Origin: an uncultured Chlorobiaceae bacterium | GTDB lineage: Bacteria; Bacteroidota; Chlorobiia; Chlorobiales; Chlorobiaceae | NCBI GenBank assembly: GCA_903895195.1 | Contig: CAITSZ010000042.1 | Location: 1-49,425, forward strand | Length of the DNA stretch: 49,425 nt | Reading direction: 5' to 3' | Part shown: positions 1 to 6,773 of the stretch, in pieces | Position numbering within the stretch: position 1 is the first letter of the stretch | Layout of the letters: each line of letters begins with the position of its first letter | Made by a program: the position numbers and the translations under genes | The notes under the pieces: model-generated | What the model saw: only the letters and a program-made list of their open reading frames with translations | Told to the model about the DNA's origin: nothing | Databases searched by the model: none

Positions 1-2586
1 AAGAATTGACGGGTTTTTCGAAAGCCGCTGTAAGGCATCTTCAAAGGATGAAATACCCAGATTACTACCGTTCTCTCCCCATATACGATAATACACGACC
101 ATGGCCGATTGACCAGCAAGTGCTACTGCTTCTGCTATTGCGCCTTGCGAAACTTTGCTAATGACATTTCGCAACAACGCCGCTTCCTTCGGGCCGTTGA
201 TGAATGCAGCCCGAATCAGAGACTTTTTCAATCTTACAAGATCAGGATCGGTAGGAATCGGAGCTAACTGCACTTTGGCTTTCCACCCCGACCAGGATTC
301 TTTTGCCAGCAGTACTTCCGGTTCATATTCGTGGTAGCGAATGAAATTGCCAAAGGTCAACTCCTGCCCCGTCTCGCTCGTGAATGTCTGCAAGCGATCT
401 GGCACCTGCACATTAAGATTCCTAAGGTTTTCCCTAATATTTCGGAGTACATATTCCCGTGACTGCCTGTCAAGTTGGATAGAACAGCCTGGAGGTAGGT
501 GTGGAAAATCTAGCTCAACCTCACGGTCTATTGCATAGCGATGCTTGGGCAGCAATGCTCGAAATTTTGTGTCCATCCGGTAGCGCCGATGTACTTGTCC
601 CACAAAATCGAGAACCGTGAGGCACTCTTTCTCCGGCGCATGACGAAGGCCTCGTCCTAACTGCTGGAGAAACACAGTGAGACTCTCTGTAGGACGGAGG
701 AACATGACAAGATTAATCTCCGGAATATCAAGACCTTCATTAAAGACATCAACGGTAAAGAGAAATCGTAGCTGCCCATTCTTGAAGTCTGAGACCGCCT
801 TATTCCGCTCATCGGATGTAAGGGTGGCCACAACTGCTACGGAAGGAATCCCCCTCTCATTAAAACGCTCAGCCATGTAGAGCGCATGGTTAATTGTGAC
901 GCAGAAGCCAATCCCCTTAGCATTGGTACAATAGTCTGGCTGATAGCGCTCTAACGCCCCAATGATTGCGTCAACTCGCCGATATGCATTCTCTCGGTCT
1001 AAAGTATAGACGTTTTCCAGCTCTGACTTGTTATAGTTCCCGTTGGTCCAGAAACGATCATTATCGGTCGATATCGGGTCTGAAACACCAAAATAATGGA
1101 ATGGGCAGAGGAGCTTCTCCTCCAATGCTTCTGGAAGACGGATTTCTGCCGCGAAGGTGTTATGGAAATCGGCAGCAACAGATTTTCCGTCCATTCGTTC
1201 CGGCGTAGCGGTTAGGCCGATAAGTATCTCTGGATCAAAATGTTCGAAGATGGGGCGATAACTGTCAGAGGCTCCATGATGAACCTCATCAACAACAATA
1301 TAGTCGTAGAAACCTCCTCCAACCTGCTTCCAGAGTTCTCGATTTGTCAGCATCTGTACCGAGCAAAACAGGTGTTCCAATCGGCCAGCCGCAAAATCTC
1401 CGACAAGGAGTTCACCGAAATTCTGGTCACGCAGCACATTTCTGAAAGTTATAAGCGCCTGCTCAAGGATTTCCTTGCGATGTGCAACAAACAGAAATTT
1501 TGCATTACGGTTACGCCTCTTGTAAAACTCATAAAAATCGAATGCGGCAACCACGGTTTTACCTGTTCCGGTAGCTGCTATAACAAGATTTTTATAGCGA
1601 TTGTGCACTTCACGCTCTCGCTTCAAGGCATCAAGGATGCGCTCCTGAAACGGGTGCGGCGTAAGATCAAAGAAAACCGATGTGATCCCATATTTTCTTG
1701 TTCGCTCACGAACAATTGCATCCCTGAAGCGCTCAGGCTCTTCGGTGTCAAATGGAATAAATTCTTTGCTATTCCAGTAGGTCTCAAATTCGGCAGTAAA
1801 TTTCTCCAGAATATGCCCCATATCTTGAGCAGTAACCTTAAGATTCCACTCGAGTCCGCTGGTAATGGCAGCATTGGACATGTTTGCCGAACCGATATAA
1901 GCAGTTGAAAAATTAGATTTCCGCTTAAAATGATAGGCCTTCGCATGAAGCCTCGTGCGTTCGGTATCGTAGGATACGCGTACCTTAACGTTCGACATTT
2001 CAGCCAGCCATTCGACGGCAGGTGCATCGGATGCACCCATGTATGACGTAGTGATAACCCTAACCGGTATGTTACGCAGAGACAAATCTTCAAAAGCTGG
2101 CATCAGCAGACGCAACCCAGACCACTTGATAAACGAAACCAAAATGTCAACACTGTCTGCCGACTTCATCTCCTCAAGCAGCTCATGTGCAAGTTGAGGC
2201 TCTTGTGGCGAACCGGTAAATAGACTGCTTTCAGTTAAAGATGTCTGTGGTCGAGCAACTCTTGATGACCCATAATTGGAAGGGGTGATTTCAAGAAGTA
2301 TTGGTTTTTTTTCTTGTACAAGGCGACGGTTCGCGAGGTGACTCAAGCCCGGCTCACTGGCAACCTGACCAAGAATCCGATTGCAGATATCCAGACGTTT
2401 TTCCGGATCTTTCTCTTCTCGCAATGCCTGCTCGATAACCTTGGCTACAAATGATGCATAGATAGCCGGCTGCTCTTCTTGATCGATTTTGCCAAAGACA
2501 CTTCGTAACTCTGGGTGCTGACCTAAAGCCTCTTGGAGAAGCTCATCGAGGAGTGCTTCATATATACCAAAAGCAAGTTGACTCAT
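1..2586 (-). CDS. PLD-domain superfamily II helicase (DUF3427-type), C-terminus off the window
   Basis: The minus-strand frame is open from the ATG at 2586 to the window edge, giving 862 codons without a stop. After about 120 unassigned residues comes a phospholipase-D-like half-site (LHAKAYHF near residue 212, then GSANMS). A ResIII-type SF2 helicase follows: Walker A AATGTGKT near residue 340, Walker B/motif II VVDEVHHG near 434, motif III GLTATPER, and motif VI QQLGRGLR near 642. The order PLD-helicase matches the family whose C-terminus is DUF3427. The last helicase strand and probably part of DUF3427 are present, but the end is missing. The start overlaps the stop of the upstream NUDIX gene as ATGA, so the two are probably translationally coupled. 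The family presumably acts on DNA or RNA ends with ATP hydrolysis. Its biological role is not established, and a defence role is inference from architecture and accessory context. Confidence 0.88.
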   Translation of the reverse strand, partial: MSQLAFGIYEALLDELLQEALGQHPELRSVFGKIDQEEQPAIYASFVAKVIEQALREEKDPEKRLDICNRILGQVASEPGLSHLANRRLVQEKKPILLEITPSNYGSSRVARPQTSLTESSLFTGSPQEPQLAHELLEEMKSADSVDILVSFIKWSGLRLLMPAFEDLSLRNIPVRVITTSYMGASDAPAVEWLAEMSNVKVRVSYDTERTRLHAKAYHFKRKSNFSTAYIGSANMSNAAITSGLEWNLKVTAQDMGHILEKFTAEFETYWNSKEFIPFDTEEPERFRDAIVRERTRKYGITSVFFDLTPHPFQERILDALKREREVHNRYKNLVIAATGTGKTVVAAFDFYEFYKRRNRNAKFLFVAHRKEILEQALITFRNVLRDQNFGELLVGDFAAGRLEHLFCSVQMLTNRELWKQVGGGFYDYIVVDEVHHGASDSYRPIFEHFDPEILIGLTATPERMDGKSVAADFHNTFAAEIRLPEALEEKLLCPFHYFGVSDPISTDNDRFWTNGNYNKSELENVYTLDRENAYRRVDAIIGALERYQPDYCTNAKGIGFCVTINHALYMAERFNERGIPSVAVVATLTSDERNKAVSDFKNGQLRFLFTVDVFNEGLDIPEINLVMFLRPTESLTVFLQQLGRGLRHAPEKECLTVLDFVGQVHRRYRMDTKFRALLPKHRYAIDREVELDFPHLPPGCSIQLDRQSREYVLRNIRENLRNLNVQVPDRLQTFTSETGQELTFGNFIRYHEYEPEVLLAKESWSGWKAKVQLAPIPTDPDLVRLKKSLIRAAFINGPKEAALLRNVISKVSQGAIAEAVALAGQSAMVVYYRIWGENGSNLGISSFEDALQRLSKNPSIL

Positions 2587-2987
2587 GAGGCATCTACCCT
2601 ATTTTCAACAAGATATGATTCTAATACCGGTACATCGGCCTCAGCCCAGTCGAGAGAATGGAGGTTATTAGGCGCCAACCAAGTTATGGCTGCATGTTCA
2701 TTAAGGACGATCTCACCCTCTTCAATTGAACAGATAAACGGATGGAGTGTAACAGTAAATGTCGGATACTGATAATTGCTAACAGAAAGAGATTTTCCTA
2801 CACTAACGTGAATATTCAGCTCTTCAAATAACTCACGACGCAAACACTCTGAAGGTGATTCCTCCTGATGGATCTTACCTCCAGGGAATTCCCATTTAAG
2901 AGGCAAACTCATAACTGCACTCCGCTGTGCAGCAAGAACGAACCCATCACGTTCGATAATAGCGCAAGTTACTTGAATATGATCCAT
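2583..2987 (-). CDS. NUDIX hydrolase (MutT/CTP pyrophosphohydrolase-like)
   Basis: This is a 134-residue protein from the ATG at 2987, chosen because an AGAAGGG Shine-Dalgarno lies just upstream. The frame itself is open to 3068, but the extra 27 residues do not look like a MutT N-terminus. The NUDIX box is at residues 37-59: GGKIHQEE, then RRELFEEL, matching G-x5-E-x7-RE-U-x-EE-x-G-U except that the last Gly is Asn. The N-terminal strand (VTCAIIERDGFVLAAQR) is typical of (deoxy)nucleoside triphosphate pyrophosphohydrolases such as 8-oxo-dGTPase. Its stop codon overlaps the ATG of the PLD-helicase by 4 bp, so the pair forms one operon. It could sanitise nucleotides or process a nucleotide made or used by the helicase; the substrate cannot be read from sequence. 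Confidence 0.85.
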   Translation of the reverse strand: MDHIQVTCAIIERDGFVLAAQRSAVMSLPLKWEFPGGKIHQEESPSECLRRELFEELNIHVSVGKSLSVSNYQYPTFTVTLHPFICSIEEGEIVLNEHAAITWLAPNNLHSLDWAEADVPVLESYLVENRVDAS

Positions 2988-3139
2988 GTAGCCCTTCTCT
3001 TCATTATCAGGAACCTCACATGTAACAGGAAAAAAAACGATTCGGAATAACCTGCTTTTATTTACCAAATAAACCCGTCACATGAAAACAATAAAGCCGT
3101 TTAACGCTTTATTTGAAGAATACTCGCTCAACCAAAACA

Positions 3140-3285
3140 TGATGTGGGCAGAAGGGGGGATTCTGAGTTTGATGTTAAACTGATGCGGTTCTATGGCCCG
3201 CAGGGGTTTTTTTGAATAAAGCTATTCTATCTGCCCGACGCCGCCTCCAGGAGTGCTGAAATCAGGATCAGGAATAAAGTGAGGG
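3140..3285 (-). pseudogene. Decayed fragment of a second ROK-family kinase gene
   Basis: About 140 bp aligns, with many substitutions and small gaps, to the 3' part of the intact ROK gene (roughly 6820-6960) in the same orientation. Shared words include GTTAAAC, GAATAAAGCT, CTGCCCGAC and ATCAGGATCA. In the minus-strand frame the conserved glycine motif survives as PGGGVGQIE, where the intact gene has LGGGVGQVE. The flanks do not continue the gene and stops occur. It is a relic of a paralogue or of a duplicated segment. Confidence 0.6.
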
Positions 3286-3291
3286 TTCCGT

Positions 3292-3587
3292 TCAGTGCTG
3301 GATTTTCTTGTAGAGTGTTTACGGAGCTATATCAGCCCCATTTGACCATGAATTTGTTCCCCCGTCTATAGACGCCTGCAAAAAAAGCTTTTATCCTTTA
3401 ACGGCTCAAAGAATCTCACTTTTGAAGGATATTCAGAAAAATCAACATCTCCTCTTGCCCCGTCATCAAAGATGATATGAAATGCATATCCCTCTTTGTA
3501 TGAAGAAATGGCATGATGAACTGAGCGACTACCCGTAGAAGAATTGGAAAAGGAATGAGCAGAAAATATTGAACAGTTATTGAGCAC
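3292..3587 (-). pseudogene. DUF2442-family gene broken by a frameshift and a nonsense codon
   Basis: The minus-strand frame reads HHAISSYKEGYAFHIIFDDG, then VDFSEYP and FFEPLKDKSFF, which is the start and middle of a DUF2442 protein. It then stops early at 3366. The missing end is present in a second frame as ASIDGGTNSWSNGADIAP, a stop (TAA), then TLYKKIQH. Restoring one frame shift at the run of seven T (minus strand, near 3386) and reading the TAA as GAA would give a normal DUF2442 C-terminus (ADIAPETLY). Two independent lesions argue for a true pseudogene rather than one sequencing error. DUF2442 genes often pair with DUF4160 as toxin-antitoxin-like modules; no DUF4160 partner is visible. 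Confidence 0.65.
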
Positions 3588-3633
3588 TTATCGAACAGTT
3601 ATTGAACAGTTATTGAATAATTATTGAACATTG
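3568..3633. repeat. 11-bp tandem repeat, six copies
   Basis: The unit ATTGAACAGTT occurs six times head to tail (starts 3568, 3579, 3590, 3601, 3612, 3623). Copies 1 and 4 are exact; the others differ by 1-3 bases. The period of 11 is not a multiple of three, so copy-number change would shift any frame through it. It lies upstream of, and overlaps the nominal start of, the DUF2442 pseudogene. Confidence 0.85.
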
Positions 3634-3733
3634 CATCAAAAACTGTCTGATATCTTTTTTCGTGTTCCAGTGAGTAGCGACACCCGCGCTTTTCACCAAA
3701 CGGAATCTCTATCATTTTAACGAGAGCGCGCCT

Positions 3734-3820
3734 CTATACTTCTGTTGCGAAACTTTGCGTGAGAGCATTAAGACTCTCATTACAGCCTCTCCAGGCAGAT
3801 CAGCAAATGCCGGACTTGTG
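3734..3820 (-). pseudogene. Possible remnant of a HipA C-terminus
   Basis: Downstream of hipA, minus-strand frames read FADLPGEAV and, after a frame change, NESLNALTQSFATEV before a stop. The intact HipA ends in PVGEAMLSEWNEGLNALSA. The shared GEA and NE-LNAL words in the right order suggest a decayed duplicate of a hipA 3' end. The match is short, so chance is not excluded. Confidence 0.3.
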
Positions 3821-3913
3821 CGGTGACTTGTGCGCTTCATTCCATAAGGATTGTTTCGCCTGTTTTCCTCCAAATTGTCAGAACGAAAATCCCCCATCTA
3901 TCCTGATTTCGGG

Positions 3914-5140
3914 TTAGGCTGATAGCGCGTTAAGACCCTCATTCCATTCACTGAGCATGGCCTCGCCGACTGGCTTAAAGTCTGGATAATCTGATATGTG
4001 CCGTCGCACACCCGATACAGTTTCTGCGACAGCATTGCCGACCTCTTCAAGAATGAGTTTTGCTCGTGCGGGCTGAAGGTTACAGTGCATGTGTGCAAAT
4101 GCAATAAGGCGCTTCTGTGTCGGAAAGCGCTTGCTGCCGCCTAAGGTAAGTGCAAGAGAGTCCCCTTTGATGTAAGCTGTGGTTGAAACAATATCAAAGG
4201 CGGGTGCGAAGCGCACCTCATTGTTTGACGCACCGTAGAGTACTCCGAAATTCTTAAGATGGGCATCACCGTTTCTCACGACGCATGAGAGAGCAAAAGA
4301 GCGAAAAAAGGTTTCAAGAGCTGATGCCTGCTGTGCCGGCGAAACGAACTGGCGAATCCGTTTCGCAAGTTTCTCATAACTGCCGTCATACTTTTCCGAC
4401 GTGCCGACGCCGTTCAAGGAACAGAAATCCTCAAACCCCAGATAGACACCGTCTTCAGTAAGGTCAAACCGTCGGACAACCAGAAACTGATTATTTTCAG
4501 AAAGAAAGAACTCCGGCACTTCCAGCCCGGAGAGGCGGGCCGCACTCATGCAGAAAAACTCATTGGCCGCAAGATGGGGATACTCGTTCGCATTCCAGCC
4601 TTTGACGATATGGGTCGCACCTTTAACGGTAACCCTCGACTGATCAAGAGCGTAGGGTTCCGCATCTATTTTTTCCTGATCTCTGATCAATACCTTTGGC
4701 TGCACACCCGAAACACCGGAAACCATAGAAAACCGTTCAAGGAGATCACGCAGCAGATCCTCAGCGCCATCATAAGCCACCAGTTCCGAAACCCGTTGCA
4801 GCGGAACCTGGTCTATCACTTCAGGGTCGTTGGCAAACCGCAGCCTGCCGATCTGTGAGCGGCCTACAACCTCTAAAAGGGAGAGTGCATCAAAACCCTC
4901 AACACGCTTTCTCAACGAGAGCTCTATCGACTCGCGGAGTCGCCCTTCAGGCAGATTCATCTGAAAAACCGGGTGCAGCCCCCTCTTGTAATGATAACTC
5001 TCAAGAGACCATGGCATCGTCAGGGAAACATCATTCCCCTCATCAATTGATGGGCGATAAGCAAAAGTGAAAGCCCCTCGCTCTGCCGGGTGGCGATCCA
5101 GAGAGCCGACAACTTGGGGAGTGACCCAGACGTCCAGCAT
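3914..5140 (-). CDS. hipA: HipA-family serine/threonine kinase toxin
   Basis: This 408-residue protein has the HipA layout: an N-terminal subdomain (WVTPQVVGSLDR to about residue 105), then the kinase core. Visible features are the Gly-rich loop with GVSGVQPKVLI, the catalytic loop NGDAHLKNFG, and the metal-binding APAFDIVST motif. HipA kinases of the classic type phosphorylate glutamyl-tRNA synthetase and cause growth arrest; other HipA proteins have other targets, so the target here is unknown. The ATG lies one base after the hipB stop, and the AAGGAGG ribosome site is inside the last hipB codons. Antitoxin first, toxin second is the normal hip order. All key residues appear intact. Confidence 0.9.
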   Translation of the reverse strand: MLDVWVTPQVVGSLDRHPAERGAFTFAYRPSIDEGNDVSLTMPWSLESYHYKRGLHPVFQMNLPEGRLRESIELSLRKRVEGFDALSLLEVVGRSQIGRLRFANDPEVIDQVPLQRVSELVAYDGAEDLLRDLLERFSMVSGVSGVQPKVLIRDQEKIDAEPYALDQSRVTVKGATHIVKGWNANEYPHLAANEFFCMSAARLSGLEVPEFFLSENNQFLVVRRFDLTEDGVYLGFEDFCSLNGVGTSEKYDGSYEKLAKRIRQFVSPAQQASALETFFRSFALSCVVRNGDAHLKNFGVLYGASNNEVRFAPAFDIVSTTAYIKGDSLALTLGGSKRFPTQKRLIAFAHMHCNLQPARAKLILEEVGNAVAETVSGVRRHISDYPDFKPVGEAMLSEWNEGLNALSA

Positions 5141-5141
5141 G

Positions 5142-5393
5142 CTAAGCCTCCTTCTCGTTTACTAAATCCTGCAAAGTAGGGCGCTGTGATGCAACTTTAA
5201 GGGTGAGCTCAAGCCCAAGCGTAGCACAGATTGCCATAACCTTTCTTATCCCTATTTCCGGCAGTTTTCCGTTTTCAAGCCGACTCAGCGTAACCCGGTT
5301 TATCCGGTTAAGAGCCGCCACCTCTGTCTGCGACATCCCTAAAGCCCTCCTCCGTGCGCGAAGCTGCTCACCAACCTCCTCAATATCAACCAT
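5142..5393 (-). CDS. hipB: HipB-like antitoxin, XRE helix-turn-helix
   Basis: This 83-residue protein has an N-terminal Cro/CI-type helix-turn-helix (LRARRRALGMSQTEVAALN, then VTLSRLENGK). A short tail follows that would contact HipA. It is directly upstream of hipA with one base between them, so both are on one mRNA. It should bind as a dimer to the palindrome overlapping its own start and repress the operon, as HipB proteins do. Confidence 0.9.
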   Translation of the reverse strand: MVDIEEVGEQLRARRRALGMSQTEVAALNRINRVTLSRLENGKLPEIGIRKVMAICATLGLELTLKVASQRPTLQDLVNEKEA

Positions 5394-5452
5394 AATTGTT
5401 ATCTATATGCTACAATAAATCAGATATTAATTAAAATGTAGCATATAACAAT
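5394..5452. promoter_or_regulatory. hipBA operator/promoter palindrome
   Basis: TATATGCTACA (5404-5414) and TGTAGCATATA (5437-5447) are a perfect 11-bp inverted repeat separated by 22 AT-rich bases. Outer words ATTGTTAT (5394-5401) and ATAACAAT (5445-5452) extend the symmetry, with a 4-bp offset on the left arm. It abuts the hipB start codon, the expected place for HipB autorepression. Confidence 0.7.
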
Positions 5453-5477
5453 CATTTTAACAAATGAATTACAAAAT

Positions 5478-5745
5478 TCAAGCGCAAACCATCTCGTGCA
5501 TCTTCACGAAATGGTCTTCAAACGGCCAGGCAAACCCGGTGCGATTACTTTCGCAAAGTCTCGAATGGATATTGCCTTGATCATCAGGATTTTCATCCTG
5601 CCACTCTTTAGCCGTTTTTCCGAAAAGCGCTATACTCACTGCTTCGTTTGTAATTCCCTCGAATTCGGGGGAATTACAATTGGTGTTGCATAGCTGATGC
5701 CAGATGTCGATAAACTCTATGGTATTTTTTTGCCGAAGCCTCTTC
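5478..5745 (-). pseudogene. KilA-N domain protein, internally deleted
   Basis: The minus-strand frame reads KNTIEFIDIWHQLCNTN, then NSPEFEGITNEA, the start of a KilA-N DNA-binding domain. It jumps directly to ALFGKTAKEWQDENPDDQGN, which belongs near the C-terminus of such proteins, and ends at a stop at 5478. Most of the KilA-N core (the part around the GRYGGT and FASWIS motifs in intact relatives) is missing, and there is no start codon in place. KilA-N proteins are common in phages and mobile islands, so this is a relic of such DNA. Confidence 0.6.
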
Positions 5746-5844
5746 TCATTGAAAGAAAATAATATAAGCGTATTTAATGCTAAAGCGTTACCTTATTCGT
5801 TTTTTTTACGCTTACAACCCAAGGAGCCTCGTATTTTATCCGTA

Positions 5845-5883
5845 CTATAAGTCGCATAAGGACTATAATGCCTATTCTTCTCT
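5845..5883. repeat. 39-bp direct repeat, left copy
   Basis: It matches 6735-6773 at 32 of 39 positions in the same orientation. The right copy is the last few codons and stop of the intact ROK gene plus its immediate downstream sequence. The two copies bracket the HigBA-type module at 5964-6559. This could be the end of a lost ROK paralogue or a small dispersed 3'-end repeat. Confidence 0.6.
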
Positions 5884-5926
5884 TTGCTGATCATCCTCTC
5901 CAAATAAACGGATGCGAAGAAAAAAC

Positions 5927-5963
5927 TTGGTTACTAGTATCCAAATAGATACAATACTATTAT
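5927..5963 (+). promoter_or_regulatory. Promoter and operator of the toxin-antitoxin pair, probably leaderless
   Basis: TTGGTT (5927-5932) and TACAAT (5950-5955) are spaced 17 bp, which places the start of transcription about 7 bp on, at or within 1-2 bases of the toxin ATG (5964). No Shine-Dalgarno precedes the ATG. An inverted repeat GTATC (5937-5941)/GATAC (5948-5952), nested in TAGTAT/ATACTA, covers the spacer and -10 and could be the antitoxin operator. Confidence 0.55.
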
Positions 5964-6266
5964 ATGAACACATTCATTAGGGCGTCCGATTTTGATGCAT
6001 GGTTATCCAATCTGAAGGACCACAAAGCCAAGGCAAGAATCCTTGCCAGGTTGCAGAGTGCGGTTTTCGGAAATTTTAGTGATTGTGAACCTATTGGGGA
6101 AGGTGTGTCGGAGATGCGGATTCATGTTGGCCCGGGCTATCGGGTCTATTATACTCGAACAGAAAAAACAATTTATTTCTTGCTGGGAGGTGGCGATAAG
6201 TCCACACAGAAAAAAGACATTGCCCGCGCAATAAAATTAGCTCGTGAACTAAAGGACGTCAAATAA
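5964..6266 (+). CDS. HigB/RelE-type addiction-module killer toxin
   Basis: This 100-residue basic protein belongs to the addiction-module killer group (phage-derived Gp49-like/HigB, RelE superfamily). Features are FDAWLSNLKDHKAKARILARL, the central GVSEMRIHVGPGYRVYY strand with the conserved arginines, and FLLGGGDKSTQKKDIARA near the end. Such toxins cut mRNA, usually on the ribosome. The toxin comes before the antitoxin, as in HigBA modules, and its stop overlaps the antitoxin ATG (TAATG). The ATG follows a strong-looking -10 by only 8 bases. Confidence 0.88.
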   Translation: MNTFIRASDFDAWLSNLKDHKAKARILARLQSAVFGNFSDCEPIGEGVSEMRIHVGPGYRVYYTRTEKTIYFLLGGGDKSTQKKDIARAIKLARELKDVK

Positions 6267-6559
6267 TGAAAACAACATACGCACCATTCGATGTGGCGGA
6301 CTATCTCAATAACGATGAGGTTATTACCGAATACCTCACTGCGGCTGCTTCCGATCCAAACACTGAGGTATTTATTGCTGCACTAAGGGATGTGGCAAAG
6401 GCTCGAGGTATAGCGCAAATCGCCAAAGATGCCGGGTTAGGCAGGGAGAGCCTATACAAAACATTAAAAGTTGGCGCTCATCCAAGATTTGAAACAATAA
6501 ACGCCGTACTCCACGCCCTTGGAGTAAAATTTCAGGTCGTCACTGAAAAGCCAGCCTAA
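6266..6559 (+). CDS. HigA-like addiction-module antidote protein
   Basis: This 97-residue protein has the sequence pattern of the antidote family paired with these killers: FDVADYLNNDEVITEYLTAA at the start, then a helix-turn-helix around IAQIAKDAGLGRESLYKTL, and FETINAVLHALGVKF. It binds the toxin and should bind the operator upstream of the toxin. Start and toxin stop overlap by one base, so translation is coupled. Confidence 0.88.
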   Translation: MKTTYAPFDVADYLNNDEVITEYLTAAASDPNTEVFIAALRDVAKARGIAQIAKDAGLGRESLYKTLKVGAHPRFETINAVLHALGVKFQVVTEKPA

Positions 6560-6582
6560 GAGCCACGTTCTGCCCTCCCTTT

Positions 6583-6609
6583 TTTAAGATCACAGACTGT
6601 GATCTTAAA
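6583..6609. other. 27-bp near-perfect palindrome
   Basis: TTTAAGATCACAG (6583-6595) and CTGTGATCTTAAA (6597-6609) are perfect 13-bp arms around a single base. A one-base centre cannot form a normal hairpin loop without opening the inner pairs, and there is no T-run after it, so it fits a protein-binding site as well as a terminator. It lies 24 bp after the antitoxin stop. Confidence 0.6.
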
Positions 6610-6630
6610 GCGTTATATGCCACTGCTTCC

Positions 6631-6654
6631 AAAGTGGTCGATTTTGACCACTTT
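6631..6654. terminator. Stem-loop between the antitoxin and the ROK gene
   Basis: AAAGTGGTC (6631-6639) and GACCACTTT (6646-6654) give a 9-bp stem with a 6-base loop. No long U-tract follows on either strand, so termination is uncertain. It lies between convergent genes. Confidence 0.4.
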
Positions 6655-6734
6655 AACATTCATAAACTTCGGTAGTATTTAAGCTGTTAAATAGGCCGAA
6701 AGACTGGTCTCGCGAACAACGTCTTCTATAGGCC

Positions 6735-6773
6735 CTATAAGTCCCATACGACCTATAGGTCCTATTCTTCTCT
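6735..6773. repeat. 39-bp direct repeat, right copy
   Basis: This is the partner of 5845-5883 (32 of 39 identical). It includes the 3' end of the intact ROK gene (stop at 6762-6764) and downstream sequence with repeated CCTATA/TATAGG words. Confidence 0.6.

Follow-up and report, generated by a model that had tools for sequence, protein, structure and literature searches.

What does a cell gain by coupling a nucleotide hydrolase to a DNA-cutting helicase? This question is raised by one end of the 49,425-nucleotide stretch analyzed here (the window; contig CAITSZ010000042.1 of assembly GCA_903895195.1, from an uncultured Chlorobiaceae bacterium), in which a NUDIX hydrolase gene runs directly into a gene whose product joins a phospholipase D (PLD)-type nuclease site to a superfamily 2 (SF2) helicase motor. 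An initial annotation had listed the pair as a candidate defense or nucleic acid repair system. As set out below, the large protein is itself of a known kind, and what appears unexplained so far is its pairing with a probable modified-dCTP pyrophosphatase. The reading that we favor, and to which we give even chances, is that the two genes form a two-level module for excluding modified cytosine, in which type IV restriction is combined with a nucleotide-pool enzyme, most likely for self-protection.

The gene pair and its large product

Both genes lie on the minus strand. The ATG of the NUDIX gene is at 2985–2987 and its stop at 2583–2585, while the restriction-enzyme ATG is at 2584–2586, which confirms the 4-bp overlap reported initially. 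The features of the pair are as follows.

2583–2987, minus strand: NUDIX hydrolase of 134 amino acids (aa), predicted modified-dCTP pyrophosphohydrolase (PF00293, E 3.3e-16; PADLOC PDC-S07, E 9e-50)
2811–2879, minus strand: Nudix box, residues 37–59
2992–2998, minus strand: Shine-Dalgarno-like AGAAGGG, 5' of the NUDIX start
2583–2586, minus strand: ATGA overlap of the NUDIX stop and the restriction-enzyme start
1–2586, minus strand: gene for the predicted SauUSI-type modification-dependent restriction enzyme, residues 1–862 of 1043, with its 3' end on contig C27 (L006:74–619)
1774–2178, minus strand: PLD-family nuclease domain, residues 137–271 (PF13091, PLDc_2, E 5.4e-11; PF09565, NgoFVII, E 1.1e-8)
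1939–1947, minus strand: HxK nuclease half-site, H214 and K216, invariant in ten relatives
1195–1665, minus strand: first RecA-like domain of the SF2 motor, residues 308–464 (ResIII, E 2.3e-34)
1555–1575, minus strand: Walker A motif ATGTGKT, residues 338–344, invariant in the relatives' alignment
1279–1290, minus strand: DExH box DEVH, residues 433–436
640–924, minus strand: second RecA-like domain of the SF2 motor, residues 555–649 (Helicase_C, E 4.7e-16)
643–666, minus strand: QQLGRGLR motif, residues 641–648, inside the second RecA-like domain

The window is one whole contig (C42), which the restriction-enzyme gene leaves after 862 codons. The first 73 bases of contig C27 overlap the window's end exactly, and joining the two yields a protein of 1043 residues; because three congeneric genomes carry this protein unbroken (94–95% identity over residues 1–1043), we regard the join as sound. 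A DUF3427-type tail had been thought to begin inside the window. With Pfam, however, no DUF3427 score was obtained for the 862 residues present there, and the domain is detected on the C27 continuation only (L006:2–619, PF11907, E 2e-20). The remainder of the proposed architecture, namely a PLD-type half-site and a complete SF2 helicase, was recovered as a PLDc_2 domain with one HxK and a GSxN, and as ResIII followed by Helicase_C. The HxK, GSxN, GTGKT, DExH and QQLGRGLR motifs are invariant in an alignment of ten diverse relatives, and one chain thus holds a single HxK, a full SF2 (HsdR-like) motif set and a DUF3427/SRA-like target domain.

Homology places this protein among the SauUSI-type restriction enzymes, which are type IV and modification-dependent. 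It matched the PADLOC model mREase_IV at E 4e-162, and the nearest solved chain in a single-sequence search was SauUSI itself (7clg, E 6.7e-82), far ahead of RadD (6jde, E 1.5e-19) and HsdR. A 24-row profile of relatives aligned with 7clg from the PLD nuclease to the target recognition domain (7clg residues 35–919, E 4e-144). In addition, the predicted model of a relative (L046) matched 7clg over 762 residues (7clg 39–943), with a large overall root-mean-square deviation that reflects domain placement; this was the only match among those listed that spanned all domains. The whole-enzyme three-dimensional model has poor confidence in the N-terminal 125 residues, a segment that was left uninterpreted.

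These comparisons also bear on whether the large protein could be a RadD-like helicase acting in DNA repair, which would make the pair a repair module. The motor alone does match RadD (NF053632, E 2e-26, besides 6jde), which has the top Z among the folds compared and, on the motor alone, a higher Z than SauUSI. Nevertheless, the NF053632 score is 92 bits against a cut-off of 720 and concerns the motor only, whereas the matches of the PLD and DUF3427 domains are to SauUSI, the sole listed structure to span all domains being 7clg; we therefore consider a repair module extremely unlikely. Like the window's protein, the CglI and NgoAVII restriction systems combine a PLD nuclease with an SF2 ATPase, but they distribute them over two subunits, R (PLD-B3) and H (ATPase-Z1-C); membership in that group is ruled out by the presence of PLD and motor in one chain and of DUF3427 instead of the B3 target domain.

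Staphylococcus aureus SauUSI (PDB 7clg) shares with the window's enzyme the PLD HxK nuclease, the SF2 motor, a helical coupler and a DUF3427/SRA-like domain with a conserved Asp and Trp, and the two differ by ~110 extra N-terminal residues. SauUSI cuts S-5mC-N-G-S, in which the base is 5-methylcytosine (5mC) or 5-hydroxymethylcytosine (5hmC), and the residues named for its 5-methylcytosine pocket are D858, W868, Y831 and M829 (PMC7913695). D858 and W868 correspond to D951 and W961 in the window's enzyme, both invariant in the aligned set. Catalysis and target of the latter would follow from this homology.

Association of NUDIX and SauUSI-type genes across genomes

Linkage was scored in 109 SauUSI-type loci, taken from Bacteroidota and Chlorobiota genomes and from the best 80 genome-collection loci of 585 candidates. 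A NUDIX gene of the window's group was directly adjacent in 35 loci (27 upstream and 8 downstream), and all 35 shared the strand of their SauUSI-type gene. Outside the adjacent positions, the flanks contain 2 such genes in 0.97 Mb, a density at which approximately 0.1 adjacent NUDIX genes would be expected; this comparison serves as an indication only, given that it ignores relatedness and that the loci were picked by similarity to the query. The NUDIX hydrolase is a real and recurrent partner of SauUSI-type enzymes. The initial annotation had named a NUDIX neighbor confined to a few lineages as grounds for refutation; this did not apply, as the link recurs in records from Bacteroidota/Chlorobiota, Bacillota, Nitrospirota, Planctomycetota and deltaproteobacteria, and a NUDIX-SauUSI-type pair is also present on a Hymenobacter plasmid.

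The prototype enzyme has the same neighbor, immediately upstream. In the S. aureus record NZ_CP077890.1, the NUDIX protein WP_000755954.1 contains the aligned 125 residues of the solved structure 5X1X exactly, and the SauUSI ATG lies 1 bp past its stop; the SauUSI frame shows no difference from 7clg in the 384 residues that were compared and is broken further on. A SauUSI-type gene is the direct neighbor of 28 of the top 30 5X1X relatives in Bacilli, and the two share a strand in 27 of these cases. A similar profile was observed for homologs of Q5LBB1 (PDB 3GWY), a Bacteroides fragilis NUDIX hydrolase, in two samples of Bacteroidota genomes (394 and 344): at 50–54% identity, ten out of ten (L124–L131, L165 and L166) have a SauUSI-type gene as a same-strand neighbor, while below 50% identity the link is mostly lost, with the window's Chlorobiota group (~39%) among the exceptions.

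On a NUDIX tree built from a short alignment by a quick method, the labels upstream, downstream and unlinked changed 10 times, compared to 39.9 times when shuffled. Since the downstream gene order emerges at least twice on this tree, multiple origins or rearrangements of the link are probable. According to the tree, the reversed order arose separately in two Bacteroidales NUDIX genes that have the SauUSI-type gene upstream (L178 and L181). In another locus, the downstream NUDIX frame (L070:11092–11958, 288 aa) extends into a C-terminal part that is GNAT-like as judged by eye.

The association does not extend to the whole NUDIX group. The neighbors of 35 unlinked relatives were viewed and ten of them scanned; they were mixed (transporters, Fic, a Schlafen helicase, domains of unknown function), so a general partner for every NUDIX of the group was rejected and the association is specific to certain NUDIX subgroups. 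In three Bacteroidales loci (L175, L180 and L183), the unlinked NUDIX gene directly follows a gene for a Schlafen group 3 helicase, and the two may form a further NUDIX-helicase pair. Conversely, a scan of 43 neighbors in SauUSI-type loci lacking the NUDIX gene showed no family in more than three, and hence no common substitute partner. The two closest Geobacter-type relatives (L051:10558–14400 and L044:5785–9918, 75% identical) have no NUDIX gene; downstream of each lies a very long gene in the same direction (frames of 1280 and 1377 aa). An apparent fusion, a 4425-aa reading frame in one genome (G090, L043), proved to be a run of masked N.

PADLOC lists PDC-S07 as a lone phage-defense candidate gene without function, and its model matches all 37 NUDIX proteins of our aligned set, 35 of which are SauUSI-linked. 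As a defense marker on its own it was rejected, because at E 1e-3 the model also matches NUDIX proteins in 14 of 14 control genomes. Only high scores (137–181 bits in the genomes compared) are informative, and yet one such protein (G394, L157) is not SauUSI-linked; used without a threshold, the PADLOC model (PDLC04899) would overcall defense genes. PDC-S07 co-localized with type IV restriction-modification genes in 23 of 23 cases in Streptococcus suis (PMC12813430), and a figure legend places MutT homologs beside SauUSI homologs in Streptococcus (PMC7641849). Our literature search combining SauUSI or type IV restriction with Nudix or MutT retrieved no paper proposing a function. The initial statement that the pair has no defined function can be divided: the large protein belongs with SauUSI, which has been characterized both in structure and in biochemistry, while the pairing with a probable modified-dCTP pyrophosphatase, including that beside the prototype SauUSI, appears unexplained in the literature searched.

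Predicted substrate of the NUDIX hydrolase and candidate roles of the pair

The Nudix box reads GX5EX7REUXEEX(N)I, an intact catalytic box in which N replaces the consensus G. By sequence, the nearest solved structures are 5x1x (E 1.2e-25), 3gwy (E 5.6e-24) and then 2rrk, with Escherichia coli MutT well behind (E 4e-9). The first of these was named mutator MutT by its depositors, and no substrate for it was found in the literature searched. The second, Q5LBB1, belongs to the same NUDIX subgroup with the catalytic box kept, and was assayed against 74 compounds; its best substrates were 5-Me-CTP, 5-Me-dCTP and 5-hydroxymethyl-dCTP, at 4–7e6 per M per s, with values ~50-fold lower for 5-OH-dCTP (PMC5158307). 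The third, E. coli NudG/Orf135, is a pyrimidine (d)NTP diphosphatase that prefers 5-methyl-dCTP over CTP (PMC5158307), and its family is the best NCBIfam match of the window's NUDIX (102 bits compared to 77 for MutT). The predicted NUDIX model (pLDDT 95) fits the group, including MutT2 with bound 5mdCTP (Z 20), and E. coli MutT (3a6t) follows at Z 18, so that fold alone leaves the substrate undecided. Kinship to an enzyme assayed as a 5-methyl- and 5-hydroxymethyl-dCTP pyrophosphatase is nonetheless directly observed, and the window's NUDIX probably hydrolyzes these modified dCTPs. The best substrates of Q5LBB1 coincide with the bases that SauUSI recognizes in DNA.

A house-cleaning role, in which the NUDIX clears 8-oxo-dGTP or similar oxidized nucleotides and was recruited for general repair after restriction damage, finds some basis in the MutT family match (TIGR00586, E 2e-21, with 77 bits falling below the cut-off of 97.9) and in the MutT-like fold. 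In this case, though, the better match to NudG and the greater proximity of 5x1x, 3gwy and 2rrk would not be expected, nor would the clustering of SauUSI-linked NUDIX proteins on the tree; these are, moreover, by far the best family match in their own genomes (158–181 versus at most 47 bits), and general repair leaves the attachment to the SauUSI family unexplained. We consider such a role decidedly unlikely.

The self-protection that we propose would operate as follows. By homology with SauUSI, the large enzyme would dimerize, so that two PLD half-sites form one nuclease site; its C-terminal DUF3427/SRA-like domain would read modified cytosine in incoming DNA, the SF2 motor would translocate, and the DNA would be cut. 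The NUDIX hydrolase would convert loose 5-methyl-dCTP and 5-hydroxymethyl-dCTP to monophosphate and pyrophosphate. Modified deoxycytidine nucleotides arise from degraded modified DNA or from phage nucleotide enzymes early in infection. If polymerase inserted them at random into the host chromosome, the resident restriction enzyme would find targets there; the NUDIX would clear these nucleotides first. In vitro, Q5 polymerase incorporates 5-Me-dCTP and 5-hm-dCTP just as well as dCTP, and 5-methyl- and 5-hydroxymethyl-dCMP can be phosphorylated by phage kinases (PMC10742078). Protection from self-restriction would be one step further from the data than the substrate.

The same substrate evidence could serve an offensive role, whereby the NUDIX destroys the 5-hydroxymethyl- or 5-methyl-dCTP of a phage, whose unmodified DNA then falls to ordinary restriction, with the SauUSI-type enzyme cutting any DNA that retains the modification. 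The presence of NUDIX and nuclease in one operon and islet, together with their patchy distribution, would suit this idea. However, the linkage is equally strong beside S. aureus SauUSI, whose main documented job is to block transferred DNA (PMC7913695); phages with modified cytosine are a narrow target, and a second restriction system would be needed in every host. On balance, we regard this trap as unlikely. Alternatively, the NUDIX might make or destroy a ligand, for example of the ADP-ribose or dinucleotide type, that gates SauUSI activity, as Nudix domains do occur in NAD/ADP-ribose conflict systems (PMC7159879) and the two genes are translationally coupled. In vitro, though, SauUSI needs no partner for its activity (PMC7913695), most of its relatives have no NUDIX, and the window's NUDIX falls in the MutT/NudG group, outside the ADP-ribose hydrolases; a signaling role is therefore very unlikely.

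Several observations weigh against exclusion of modified cytosine with self-protection. With respect to the NUDIX, its NudG equivalog score (NF007834) lies below the cut-off (102 versus 156 bits) and it is just ~39% identical to 3GWY, in a superfamily whose substrates are unsafe to read from sequence; furthermore, the B. fragilis 3GWY gene itself was not found in the genomes drawn or in the plasmid collection. The partner cannot be obligatory, since an adjacent NUDIX is missing from around two thirds of the SauUSI-type loci, among them that of L051, a Geobacter enzyme of 75% identity. In the restriction enzyme, two pocket residues of SauUSI, M829 and Y831, are unconserved at the aligned positions. 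Finally, the SauUSI-type enzyme coexists in the source genome with three PF00145 cytosine-5 methyltransferase genes (L150–L152), located on other contigs:

C49:1442–2431, PF00145 cytosine-5 methyltransferase gene
C16:16719–17846, PF00145 cytosine-5 methyltransferase gene
C16:2786–4084, PF00145 cytosine-5 methyltransferase gene

With these genes present, host DNA probably carries m5C at set sites, in which case cutting by the restriction enzyme must depend on sequence context or on some other modification.

Genomic setting and implications

The pair lies in an islet of ~8.7 kb between rlmD and a ROK-kinase/PAP2/yidC block, which also holds HipBA-like (3914–5393), HigBA-like (5964–6559) and HTH-M78 genes; no cognate methyltransferase was identified among the islet genes beside the restriction enzyme. 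Two congeners have the same interval closed to 0.3–0.5 kb, and a third has 55 bp separating rlmD from PAP2. Matches to mREase_IV were obtained in 40 of 296 genomes of the phylum, with a patchy distribution. This setting fits an accessory defense islet. Toxin-antitoxin modules are indeed nearby, as initially described, but as a part of the arrangement they look incidental, since none were found in the flanks read for three pair-bearing congeners (flanks incomplete for two). As for the initial choice between defense and repair, the conserved, co-directional and overlapping genes, their patchy occurrence and the variable islet favor defense, and the case for repair is weak for the helicase gene.

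Two further observations concern the islet. The rlmD-to-ROK/yidC interval (window 1–6761 plus L006:1–2061), empty in some congeners and here filled with restriction, toxin-antitoxin and HTH-M78 genes, is likely an insertion hotspot of the genus. Between the NUDIX gene and hipA, a short DUF2442-like frame (3366–3587) scores just under the Pfam cut-off and is possibly a gene remnant.

Type IV enzymes have no partner methyltransferase, and to our knowledge it is seldom asked how cells keep random modified bases in their own chromosome from becoming type IV targets. If our reading holds, a linked enzyme would supply the answer by clearing precisely these building blocks, and the self-immunity of a restriction system would be achieved via the nucleotide pool instead of a methyltransferase. 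The orphan candidate PDC-S07 of PADLOC would gain a partner and a chemistry. More generally, and with slightly less than even confidence, we suggest that many SauUSI-type enzymes, including S. aureus SauUSI, may be one half of a two-gene system, in which a nuclease acts on modified DNA and a dedicated pyrophosphatase on the corresponding triphosphate, so that the cell's own DNA never gains the mark. The view of SauUSI, which is a major obstacle to the transfer of DNA in S. aureus and has so far been studied as a single gene, would then have to be revised.

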